Positions 7,531 through 46,712 of a stretch of DNA of 64,000 nucleotides are shown in pieces. The position numbers were made by a program, and so were the translations under genes. The first letter of the stretch is position 1. The number at the start of each line of letters is the position of its first letter. Below the pieces are notes generated by a model. It did no database searches. It had not been told where the DNA came from and saw only the letters and a program-made list of their open reading frames with translations. The stretch covers positions 1 to 64,000 of the forward strand of contig DVNT01000047.1 in the NCBI GenBank assembly GCA_018714185.1. The letters are read 5' to 3'. The stretch is from Candidatus Aphodousia gallistercoris (GTDB lineage: Bacteria > Pseudomonadota > Gammaproteobacteria > Burkholderiales > Burkholderiaceae_F).

Positions 7531-7935
7531 GGCGTTGGATTCGCCATAAAAAGAACCTTCGACATCTTGAATATTCTTCGCTCGAAGCTCTTCTGCACTG
7601 TGCTTTTTCGTGAAATCCCCCTACCCTGAAGGCAGAAGCGGTGCGGCAGACAGTCGCCCCCTTTCCGACATGGGCGAAGGTTTACGACCGACTTTGAAGG
7701 CCGAGGGGAACAAACTCGGGAGTATCGGTTCTCAATAGGCACGGGAAGTCCCTGATGCCGTGCCCGCCGGTAGCCTTGATGCGCGAAAAAGCTTAACGGC
7801 AGGCGAATTTCGACAAGGAGCAGTTGCAAAAACTGCACTAAGGGGAAAAATCGCAAGACCTTTTTAACCGAAATGCGAAAGAAGCAGGCGCTTGCCCTCC
7901 GGTCTTAAGACGGAAGTTCCCGCGCCTTTTTATCT
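7531..7935 (+). ncRNA. Candidate structured 5' leader / cis-regulatory RNA upstream of amino-acid ABC transporter
   Basis: ~390-400 nt without convincing coding content; many hairpins (CTTCGA/TCGAAG, CGCCC/GGGCG, CCGAG/CTCGG, GGCACGG/CCGTGCC, GCAGTT/AACTGC); ends in a GGCGC..GCGCC stem followed by TTTTT just before the permease ATG. Confidence 0.5.
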
Positions 7936-8604
7936 ATGAATTCCGACACTCTGAATCTACTGATTGACTCGTTTTGGAACATATTGCTGCCCGGTCTGAC
8001 CGTAACGATTCCGCTTACGGCCATTTCGTTTGCTTTTGCCTTGGTCATTGCCATTGCGGTTGCCCTGGTGCAATTTGCCAAAATCCCGGTTCTGACCGAG
8101 CTCTCGCGTCTTTACATCTGGATTATCCGCGGCACGCCCCTTCTGGTGCAGCTGTTTATCGTCTTTTACGGCTTGCCTCACGTCGGCATCCTGATCAACC
8201 CGTTTGTGGCCGCCGTGATTGTCTTTTCCATCAATGAAGGGGCTTACTGTGCCGAAACCATGCGAGCAGCGCTGGAGTCCGTCCCGAAGGGTCAGCTTGA
8301 GGCAGGATTATGCGCCGGCATGAGCTGGCTTCAAACGATTCGGCGCATCGTGCTGCCCCAAGCTTTTCGAACCGCGTTTCCTACCCTGGGCAATTCGCTC
8401 ATAGCCATGGTCAAGGATACGTCGCTTGCCGCCAACATCACCGTGACGGAAATGTTCATGACCACGCAGCGCATTGTTGCGCGCACCTACGAGCCGCTAT
8501 TGCTTTACATCGAGGTCGGCCTCATTTACCTGCTGTTTTGTACCGTCCTCACCCAAGTGCAACGCGCCGGCGAAAAGCGCCTGCAAAAGTTTGGCGAACG
8601 CTAA
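7936..8604 (+). CDS. Polar amino-acid ABC transporter permease
   Basis: HisM/GlnP-type permease; ESVPKGQLEAGLCAGMSWLQTIRRIVLPQAFR EAA loop. Confidence 0.92.
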   Translation: MNSDTLNLLIDSFWNILLPGLTVTIPLTAISFAFALVIAIAVALVQFAKIPVLTELSRLYIWIIRGTPLLVQLFIVFYGLPHVGILINPFVAAVIVFSINEGAYCAETMRAALESVPKGQLEAGLCAGMSWLQTIRRIVLPQAFRTAFPTLGNSLIAMVKDTSLAANITVTEMFMTTQRIVARTYEPLLLYIEVGLIYLLFCTVLTQVQRAGEKRLQKFGER

Positions 8605-36622: not shown

Positions 36623-37264
36623 TTAGCGGTAAATTCTTGGACGGTTTACTCGGGAACGCGGGGCGTAACGGCGGTTATACCCTCCCAAACTCTTTCTTGG
36701 CAAGGCGAGCTCCCGGCGAATCTCTTCGAGCTCTTCGATGACGTCATCGAGCGAAGCCGTCGGCTTATAGCGTTTGGGAACATACATAGAGTGGTAGGAC
36801 GAGGCTGGTTCATCATCTCCCAAATCCCAACCGAAAGGATTGTTTTTTCGAAAATCGCTAACTGCGGCCCCGCTTTGAGAAGCCTTTTCCGGTTCAGGGA
36901 AAGTCGCTTCGCTCTGATTAAATTGGGTATAAGGGCTATTCTCGCTTTCAAGCTGGTCAACTTCTTTGCGAACATCGTTCAGAGAAGCGTTCACGCTATT
37001 GACTTCTTGAGTGAGCGTTTTTTGCACATCACTGACCGAACTTTTCAGAGCATTTGCCGAGGTCGCGATCTCCTCACGCAAGCGTTGAATCTCAGATAGC
37101 TGCGTTTCCCGGTTAAATTCGGACTTCACTTGAGTCACATAGCCCTGAGCCTTTGCAATAAAGCGCCCAACGGCACGGGCGACCTCCGGCAAACGCTCGG
37201 GCCCCAACACCACCAGCGCCACCACAAAGATAACCAAAATCTCTGTAAAGCCTAAATCAAACAT
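36623..37264 (-). CDS. tatB: Twin-arginine translocase subunit TatB
   Basis: MFDLGFTEILVIFVVALVVLGPERLPEVARAVGRFI. Confidence 0.95.
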   Translation of the reverse strand: MFDLGFTEILVIFVVALVVLGPERLPEVARAVGRFIAKAQGYVTQVKSEFNRETQLSEIQRLREEIATSANALKSSVSDVQKTLTQEVNSVNASLNDVRKEVDQLESENSPYTQFNQSEATFPEPEKASQSGAAVSDFRKNNPFGWDLGDDEPASSYHSMYVPKRYKPTASLDDVIEELEEIRRELALPRKSLGGYNRRYAPRSRVNRPRIYR

Positions 37265-37326
37265 AGACAGACACGCAACAAGCGAAACCCGAGGTCTCGC
37301 TTGTTTTTATTCGGAAAACGTCAGAC

Positions 37327-43715: not shown

Positions 43716-44253
43716 AAAACGATTCGCTAAGAAGCCATGCTCGGAAAAACAGCCCCTCCCGGCCAAATTTTCCGAGAATACTTAGCGAAACGTGTTTCCT
43801 CCTGTTTGTCCCCACGTTCAAGTGGTATCGTCAGTTGCCTCGCACCGACGCGTAATGTTTCTTCAAAGCGGACTTGGACGCGCTTGCTGATATTTGTCGT
43901 AGCATACCGAGGCAGAGCCATTTCTTCAACGATCCCCAACCCGCTTCAAGCGCTTTCTTGGAAAAAGTGGGACGCGGCTTTCTCACGAAAACGCAACCTG
44001 AGTCAGGCGAGAAGTATTTTTGAGCGGGCTCAAATGTATCAAACGCAACTCTTTGAGACGCTCTATCACAATTTGGCTTAAAAGTTAGTACCATTACACC
44101 TTTGGATTAAGGTGATCGTTTTCTCTTCCCTTGCGCGGTCTGCTCGAATTCTTCGGTTTTAAAAAAGCCGAGTTTCAGCGTTACAAGTGCTATTTGAAGC
44201 CTCGACCAGGGCCGTATCTCCACCGAGATCCGTTTTCGAAAAATCGCGTTTTC

Positions 44254-44340
44254 GGAAAAGCGCAAGACATTTTTAACTGAATTAACCGAACTAAGAAAGA
44301 AGGCGGTGCTTTCTTCCTCGTATAAGTACGGGGTCGCGCC
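44254..44340 (+). promoter_or_regulatory. RNA-like leader element upstream of mrcA, similar to 7844-7926
   Basis: GGAAAAGCGCAAGACATTTTTAAC..AAGAAAGAAGGCGGTGC..CCTCGTATAAGTACGGGGTCGCGCC; resembles the end of the 7531-7935 leader. Confidence 0.45.
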
Positions 44341-44348
44341 GAAATTCT

Positions 44349-46712
44349 ATGAAAAAAACACCCACGCATAAATCTTGGCTAAAAAAGACTCTGAAGTGGC
44401 TCTGCATTGCCGGTGTGAGTGCCGGCGTAATCGGCGTCAGTCTCGGGCTGGTTGTCTTTTCCGTCGTGTATTACAAACTGCCTCCGATTGATACACTCAC
44501 CGACTATCGCCCCAAAGTGCCGCTTCGCATCTACACGGCCGACGGCGCCCTTATCGGGGAGTTCGGCGAAGAACGCCGGGATTACGTTCCGATCGAAGAG
44601 ATGCCGCGGCACGTCCGTTTGGCAATTTTGGCCGCCGAAGACAACGGCTTTTACGAACACTCCGGTATTGAATTTATGGGCATCGCCCGTGCCGCTCTAG
44701 CCAACTTAATCACCGGACGTCGCGGTCAAGGCGGCAGCACGATTACGATGCAGGTTGCCCGCAACTTCTTTTTAAGTTCCGAGCGCAGCTACGTGCGCAA
44801 GCTCTACGAAGTGGCATTAGCCTTCAAAATTGAGCAAAACCTTTCTAAAGATCAAATTTTTGAAATTTATGCCAACCAAATCTTCTTGGGCCATCGCTCC
44901 TACGGTTTCGGCAGCGCCGCCAAAACGTATTTCGGAAAGGACTTGCGCGATGTATCTATTTCCGAGGCCGCGGTCTTAGCCGGTCTGCCTGTTGCTCCGA
45001 GCGCCTACAATCCGATCGTCAATATTCGTAGGGCGACCATGCGACGCAATTATGTACTCGGACGCATGCTCCAGCTCGGCTACATTGATGACATCACCTA
45101 TGAGACCGCGCTCGGCCAACCCATCGAAGTCCACCAGACCTCGGCCCAACAAAAGAAAACCACTTTACAAACCGAGGACTTGCACGCTGGCTACATTGCC
45201 GAGCTGGCCCGAATGCTGCTGATTCCGTACTTCGGCGAAACGATCTATGATCAGGGAATCAATGTGTACACAACGATCCGTTCTGAGGATCAGCGCATTG
45301 CCAGCGCCGCCGTGCGCAAGGCCTTGATCGCTTATGATCACAATTACGGCTACCGCGGCGTTGAAGGCTATGTGGATTTGTCTGAAGGGGCCGACCGAGA
45401 AGCCAATATCCGTCAAGGACTGGCAAAAATCGTCTCTAGCACCAATTTATTGCCGGGCGTTGTCACAGAACTGACCCCCAAGAGCATGACGGTGGAAATC
45501 GCTAACAATGAAAAAATCACCATTGATTCGAAAAATTACGCTTTTGCCTCCAAGTACATTGCCGGCAAAGGCAAAAAACTCACCGGGCGCTACAAGCAAA
45601 AAGAGCTTCGTGTCGGCGCTATTGTTCGCGTCACCAAAAATCCTAAGGGGCAATGGACTTTGGGCCAAATCCCGGTAGCAGAAAGCGCCTTTATTTCCGC
45701 AGACTTTAACACCGGAGCGATTTATTCCCTCGTCGGCGGCTTTGACTTTAAATTTAACCAATTTAATCACGTCACCCAGGCGTGGAGGCAGCCGGGCTCT
45801 AGCTTTAAGCCCTTTATTTATTCAGCCGCTTTGGACAAGGGCTTTACCCCGGCGACCATCATCAACGATGCGCCGATCTCCATTGATCCGCGCTTGACCG
45901 GCGGGCGCCTCTGGGAACCGAAAAATGATGACGGCCGATACGAAGGCCCCATGTCTTTAGCCCGCGCCCTAGAGCGTTCCAAAAACCTGGTTTCGATCCG
46001 TGTCATGCAGGCCATTGATCCGTACTATGCGCAGCAGTACCTGACCCGTTTCGGCTTTGACAAAAAACGTCACCCGCCGTTGCTCACAACGGCATTAGGC
46101 GCCGGTTCCGTCACGCCTTGGGAAATGTTGACGGGCTTTTCGGTTTTCGCCAACGGCGGCTACTTGGTTCAACCTTACCTTATTGAAAAGGTCACGGATG
46201 CCGACGGCAATATCCTGATGCAATCGCATAATCAGCAAGCCGGCAAGGGCGCGCCGCGCACCATTGACGCTCGCAACGCGTTCGTGATGAATTCCTTGTT
46301 GCAAGGAGTTGCCCTGCGAGGCACCGGACAACGGGCCGGCCGTGCTTTAAAGCGCTCGGATATCGGAGCTAAAACCGGCACGACCAACGACTTCTTCGAC
46401 GCTTGGTTTGCCGGGTATGCCGGCAACATCACCGCGGTCGGTTGGATGGGATATGACCAACCGAAATCGCTGGGCCACAATGCCTACGGTGCCGGGCTCG
46501 TGCTTCCGATCTGGACCGAGTACATGAAGGCCGTACTAAAGGATGTTCCTGAGTACCAGCGGCCCCAACCTCCCGATGTGGTGGAAATTAACGGCCAGTA
46601 TTTCTATGCTGATCAGGTTGGCTCGACCGTGGAAACCGTCGGCTTTGGAGAAACGAAGGAGCCGACCCAGGTTGATCCCTTGCAAGGTTCTATCAGAGAT
46701 CAGATATTCTGA
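44349..46712 (+). CDS. mrcA: Penicillin-binding protein 1A (bifunctional transglycosylase/transpeptidase)
   Basis: GT51 motifs (ILAAEDNGFYEHSG, GQGGSTITMQVARN) and SxxK/KTG transpeptidase motifs (PGSSFKPF, GAKTGTTND). Confidence 0.96.
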   Translation: MKKTPTHKSWLKKTLKWLCIAGVSAGVIGVSLGLVVFSVVYYKLPPIDTLTDYRPKVPLRIYTADGALIGEFGEERRDYVPIEEMPRHVRLAILAAEDNGFYEHSGIEFMGIARAALANLITGRRGQGGSTITMQVARNFFLSSERSYVRKLYEVALAFKIEQNLSKDQIFEIYANQIFLGHRSYGFGSAAKTYFGKDLRDVSISEAAVLAGLPVAPSAYNPIVNIRRATMRRNYVLGRMLQLGYIDDITYETALGQPIEVHQTSAQQKKTTLQTEDLHAGYIAELARMLLIPYFGETIYDQGINVYTTIRSEDQRIASAAVRKALIAYDHNYGYRGVEGYVDLSEGADREANIRQGLAKIVSSTNLLPGVVTELTPKSMTVEIANNEKITIDSKNYAFASKYIAGKGKKLTGRYKQKELRVGAIVRVTKNPKGQWTLGQIPVAESAFISADFNTGAIYSLVGGFDFKFNQFNHVTQAWRQPGSSFKPFIYSAALDKGFTPATIINDAPISIDPRLTGGRLWEPKNDDGRYEGPMSLARALERSKNLVSIRVMQAIDPYYAQQYLTRFGFDKKRHPPLLTTALGAGSVTPWEMLTGFSVFANGGYLVQPYLIEKVTDADGNILMQSHNQQAGKGAPRTIDARNAFVMNSLLQGVALRGTGQRAGRALKRSDIGAKTGTTNDFFDAWFAGYAGNITAVGWMGYDQPKSLGHNAYGAGLVLPIWTEYMKAVLKDVPEYQRPQPPDVVEINGQYFYADQVGSTVETVGFGETKEPTQVDPLQGSIRDQIF

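Follow-up and report, generated by a model that had tools for sequence, protein, structure and literature searches.

Decayed right ends of IscB transposons before start codons in Candidatus Aphodousia gallistercoris and their probable persistence as donated ribosome-binding sites

Two unrelated genes in a 64,000-nucleotide stretch of the genome of Candidatus Aphodousia gallistercoris (assembly GCA_018714185.1, contig DVNT01000047.1, positions 1 to 64,000; hereafter the window) are each preceded by a similar structured element that runs up to the ATG. This raises the question of what the element is and why it should lie against a start codon. A first-pass annotation had aligned the last ~80 nt before the ATGs at 7936 and 44349, had described nested stem-loops in both and had suggested a shared translational or terminator-type switch. 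The similar sequences lie before these two ATGs and reflect homology rather than chance, and folding predicts for each an outer stem of the GGCGC/GCGCC type that encloses an inner hairpin. The likeness over the last ~80 nt is real but it extends further upstream, into remnants of an omegaRNA and of iscB. A terminator-type element is not supported, since in most copies no run of U follows the stem. The features of the two loci are as follows.

7627..7770, plus strand: remnant of the omegaRNA (HEARO) 3' part with the first iscB codons (nhmmer, E 6e-18, model positions 154-296).
7765..7876, plus strand: remnant of the iscB 3' coding end (nhmmer match 7765-7931, E 4e-17; IscB profile match 7783-7896).
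7877..7884, plus strand: GAAAGAAG, decayed counterpart of the GAAAGGAGG Shine-Dalgarno (SD) of intact elements; weak, best nearby 9-mer -4.1 kcal/mol.
7887..7926, plus strand: right-end hairpin, outer stem 7887-7891/7922-7926 (GGCGC/GCGCC), inner hairpin 7899-7913; covariation.
7927..7935, plus strand: the element's terminal 9 nt (TTTTTATCT) up to the insertion junction, then ATGA; copy alignment.
7936..8604, plus strand: ABC transporter permease gene (BPD_transp_1, Pfam PF00528), here named artM; start conserved in genome G001.
44193..44292, plus strand: remnant of the iscB 3' coding end of a 5'-truncated element (nhmmer match 44193-44352; IscB profile match 44183-44314).
44293..44303, plus strand: AAGAAAGAAGG, SD-like stretch 5' of the stem; sequence and anti-SD energy.
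44305..44340, plus strand: right-end hairpin, outer stem 44305-44309/44336-44340 (GGTGC/GCGCC), inner hairpin 44316-44322/44327-44333; covariation.
44341..44348, plus strand: the element's terminal 8 nt (GAAATTCT), then ATGA; copy alignment.
44349..46712, plus strand: mrcA, bifunctional penicillin-binding protein gene (Pfam PF00912, PF00905, PF17092).

Sequence comparison identifies both elements as the decayed right ends of transposons of the IscB/HEARO kind, which belong to the IS200/IS605 superfamily; IscB is the ancestor of Cas9. In relatives an ORF lies directly 5' of the matching right end, reading ...SYKKLSLLEKRKTFLTELRKEG, and in intact relatives this ORF is IscB (Pfam RRXRR PF14239, E 4e-63; HNH PF01844, E 2e-8). 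Upstream of iscB these relatives carry the HEARO RNA (RF02033), the omegaRNA family of IscB, with scores above the gathering threshold and up to 137 bits. The stretch GGAAAAATCGCAAGACCTTTTTAACCGAA, singled out in the first-pass annotation, is a remnant of the IscB C-terminus. When an IscB protein profile was compared with the whole genome it gave two matches only, both in the window and each just before an element, at 7783-7896 on the artM side (residues 378-415, E 0.006) and at 44183-44314 on the mrcA side (residues 375-415, E 0.002). An nhmmer DNA model made from intact elements of other species only, with no sequence of this genome, matched at 7627-7770 (E 6e-18), 7765-7931 (E 4e-17) and 44193-44352 (E 3e-12), which shows that the artM copy is internally deleted and that the mrcA copy is 5'-truncated. 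In the former a deletion of ~1.07 kb joins the 5' and 3' remnants and the model jumps from position 296 to 1363.

Parts of the omegaRNA and of iscB were recognised by the IscB profile and the intact-element model; there is no RF02033 match to a full HEARO RNA in the window, where the 3' part alone is present at 7627-7770, and the window copies are therefore remnants and not intact members. An Rfam scan of the window returned one tRNA and nothing else, and a permissive search gave chance-level matches only; the scan is blind to the window elements because their HEARO part is too decayed. Besides HEARO no Rfam family matched the element, and the copy before lptA elsewhere in this genome gives an end-to-end HEARO match of 46.6 bits, below gathering. 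The known HEARO/IscB element (RF02033; ISC group, IS200/IS605) has in common with the window copies the omegaRNA, the RRXRR and HNH iscB, the right-end hairpin and the insertion adjacent to ATGA, but the window copies are decayed and IscB-less. In both of them ATGA follows the right end, fitting an NTGA target-adjacent motif (TAM).

The first-pass annotation had proposed a genome-wide search with a two-sequence model; BLASTN and a covariance model find many further copies. Within the genome (G000; 1.8 Mb in 71 contigs) BLASTN with the artM-side element gave matches ahead of galE, of a PEBP-family gene and of a GNAT gene, with E from 2.7e-11 to 0.002; the mrcA-side element matched a copy before murD (E 1.3e-5). 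A two-helix covariance model built from six copies then recovered 16 credible copies, each ending at an ATG that in 15 cases is a gene start. The genes behind them, named from their translations, are the artM-like permease, PEBP, galE, mrcA, GNAT, lptA, murD and DUF523 genes and rlmI, ppiB, bamB, purD, obgE, a C69 dipeptidase gene, an LpxL-like gene and an ABC-F gene, a different one for each copy. Relatives in the family hold dozens more, with as many as 33 matches in a single genome. The stems also withstood the covariance check. The alignment comprised 51 distinct sequences, including a few end-hairpin or reverse-strand matches; double compensatory changes occur in 10 of 12 pairs, and 94% of cells pair as against 34-51% in slid controls.

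Two neighbouring observations may be recorded here. At the rlmI copy (C68:50308-50373) the junction ATG begins a two-codon frame, ATG AAA TGA, just ahead of the probable GTG start of rlmI, as though initiation there were coupled. On the minus strand of the window another hairpin (AACAAGCGAGACC..GTTTCGCTTGTT) is found at 37265-37310, just before the start of the ORF 36623-37264; this looks like the terminator of the upstream gene and not like an end of an IscB element.

Same-genus orthologues of artM, mrcA and murD lack the element, so that the insertions are lineage-specific; the mrcA start is conserved in the orthologues without it, and in G001 a clean empty site is present between mraY and murD. 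The intact elements of Duodenibacillus massiliensis, with left end GTCAACTACCCC and right end ...GGAATTTCT, allow the insertion sites to be read more fully. ATGA follows every one of the 24 distinct copies that have the SD-type end, and rejoining of the flanks gives normal gene starts with a native ribosome-binding site (RBS) beside the ATG, for example serC, where AAGGGAGAAACCTC meets ATGAACCGT (begins ATGAAC), and a further site where TTTTCCGGAGTTTCTG meets ATGATCAGT. About 18 of the 24 copies lie at true gene starts, whereas among control ATGA sites 64 of 565 resemble one (p about 1e-12); start codons were classed by ORF and empty-site logic and not by curated annotation, plasmids excepted. 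This rejoined empty-site test replaced a comparison of downstream ORF length, which gave a weak contrast since long frames also open at 40% of the control ATGA sites of this GC-rich genome. Outside the family (Sutterellaceae) about half of the copies precede a long ORF, 18 of 32 distant-locus junctions, read by eye, opening one of at least 60 codons compared with 26% of control ATGA sites (p 2e-4); some copies there sit within genes. Among RefSeq-annotated plasmid IscB elements the next CDS begins exactly at the junction in 4 of 7 examined (from the distant genera Cetobacterium, Anoxybacillus, Finegoldia and Pseudoalteromonas).

The target-adjacent motif of IsrB has been reported as NTGA, with ATGA cleaved (PMC9581776), and the start codons ATG, GTG and TTG followed by A all fit it. 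A subfamily of IscB elements in Sutterella wadsworthensis has the right junction ATGG in place of ATGA (ATGGAG, ATGGAC, ATGGAA), which suggests a shifted target motif. Two IscB elements of D. massiliensis exceed the usual 1588 bp by ~0.9-1.2 kb and perhaps carry an extra insert.

What the element would bring to a start codon can be seen at its right end. The last iscB codons are GAAAGGAGG or near it, a strong SD, in Proteobacteria and Firmicutes alike, and the order at the right end is the SD just 5' of the outer stem, the covarying hairpin, 7-9 nt and the AUG. It had been claimed that neither window gene has a canonical SD and that the only purine-rich stretch lies inside the stem. The artM and mrcA genes of the same genus, in orthologues without the element, likewise show no obvious SD; as to the latter claim, a purine stretch resembling an SD lies just 5' of the stem, at about -60 to -45, and not only inside it. 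In the decayed copies of this genome anti-SD pairing energy in this region is -6.6 kcal/mol or stronger in 13 of 16, and in most the usual window holds a weak SD or none. SDs are weak in the copies before artM, lptA and lpxL. The case for SD use is weakest at the two copies in the window, artM reaching -4.1 kcal/mol, and the state of the same-genus orthologues means that artM and mrcA may need no SD.

Intact right ends carry CTTCCTCC, complementary to GGAGG, in an internal loop of the hairpin, and many of them have the stop codon of iscB in the apical loop. Masking of the SD by the CCTCC of the intact hairpin was considered and rejected: partition-function folding predicted an accessibility of 0.38 in intact and a moderate 0.44 in decayed copies, no clear difference and no sign of a switch.

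Taken together with the insertion sites, this arrangement points to the following course of events. Action of a Y1 transposase on the element ends, along with the NTGA motif of IscB, would place the right end directly 5' of ATGA. Where that ATGA is a start codon the native RBS of the host gene would be displaced to the left of the element, and the right end could substitute for it, with the GAAAGGAGG SD in the last iscB codons followed by the hairpin, 7-9 nt and the AUG. The hairpin would loop out ~40 nt and so set the SD close to the AUG, and ribosomes would use the SD across the hairpin. Copies at start codons would be tolerated and kept because the element brings a ribosome-binding site. 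In old copies iscB and most of the omegaRNA would have decayed, the unit of SD, hairpin and ATG being kept since the gene depends on it and serving murD, obgE, purD and other genes as their RBS. On the sequence evidence assembled here we consider it probable that the elements, inserted 5' of ATGA, persist at start codons as donated ribosome-binding sites.

The most serious alternative is that the copies are neutral debris, their position at start codons reflecting the loss of insertions within genes and the SD and hairpin having no translational role. The hairpin is, after all, a transposon end, some genes in relatives lack an SD, and the SD codons double as iscB coding sequence, which also counts against RBS donation. 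Against such a neutral origin, GGAGG is exact in 9 of 16 decayed copies whereas just 1 of 16 retains the CCTCC found in intact hairpins (counts made by eye), and murD, single-copy in this genome, has nothing in the usual SD window apart from bases inside the stem. A natural control is provided by a second element of D. massiliensis, a 1.75-kb IS605 element with tnpA (Y1, PF01797) and tnpB, present in eight copies (one at L209:1346-3094). It shares with the IscB elements the right-end hairpin and the ATGAA junction; its genes lie on the opposite strand, its end lacks an SD and it is rarely found at gene starts. Filtering of in-gene insertions should act equally on both elements, yet 2 of 8 tnpA/tnpB copies and 18 of 24 IscB copies are at gene starts (p 0.018; a small sample). 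Neutral debris is thus unlikely as the full account, and we infer that selection, beyond insertion preference alone, causes the start-codon bias. The same tnpA/tnpB element is a likely source of transposase in trans for the IscB elements, which TnpA would thereby mobilise.

It might also be supposed that the position arises mainly from RNA-guided targeting, omegaRNA guides copied from an RBS beside ATGA steering IscB to other RBS-ATGA sites and repair then spreading the element. The 25 nt to the left of the element, the presumptive guide site, are indeed native RBS regions, and the TAM NTGA corresponds to a start codon plus A (PMC9581776), but guides differ strongly between copies, and repair by homing would re-establish a copy where it had been without creating new ones; we regard this explanation as improbable. 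A regulatory RNA common to a regulon and acting as riboswitch or thermometer, as a covarying conserved structure beside the start codon and an SD that in intact copies is accompanied by a CCTCC able to mask it might suggest, is very hard to credit when the insertions are lineage-specific and orthologous artM, mrcA and murD lack them, the downstream genes are unrelated with nothing in common, the element is homologous to a mobile element with no Rfam match beyond HEARO, and predicted SD accessibility shows no clear difference between intact and decayed copies. What stands of the switch first proposed is a structured element fused to start codons, for which a translational role in cis is plausible; regulation by it is unsupported.

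The kind of element is a known one and its original description reportedly already gave an ATGA/GTGA integration site. Start-codon occupancy and RBS donation by IscB elements were not found described in the literature searched, and occupancy together with the carried SD is apparently undescribed there. Partial parallels exist. In the phage T4 gene 38 type of initiation a hairpin lies between SD and AUG and, by analogy, a looped-out hairpin would bring the SD near the AUG; here, by contrast, the whole unit of SD, hairpin and AUG would be donated by a transposon, and at many genes. Mobile promoters borne by insertion sequences are a further case in which the end of an element gives an expression signal to the next gene, whereas the IscB end would give a ribosome-binding site abutting the start codon.

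We are inclined to think, with less assurance than for RBS donation itself, that IscB elements have evolved a start-codon niche, in which a target of start codon plus A and a dual-use stretch of iscB, read both as protein code and as a ribosome-binding site in front of the looped-out end hairpin, make insertion harmless and ends become domesticated as host ribosome-binding sites across phyla, essential genes included. Donation of ribosome-binding sites predicts testable effects on expression and provides a simple way to spot old IscB-less insertions that would otherwise be mistaken for regulatory leaders. If true, it would explain the NTGA target motif of IscB and the high copy number that IscB elements reach without killing genes, and it would account for essential genes having their ribosome-binding sites replaced by a mobile element.
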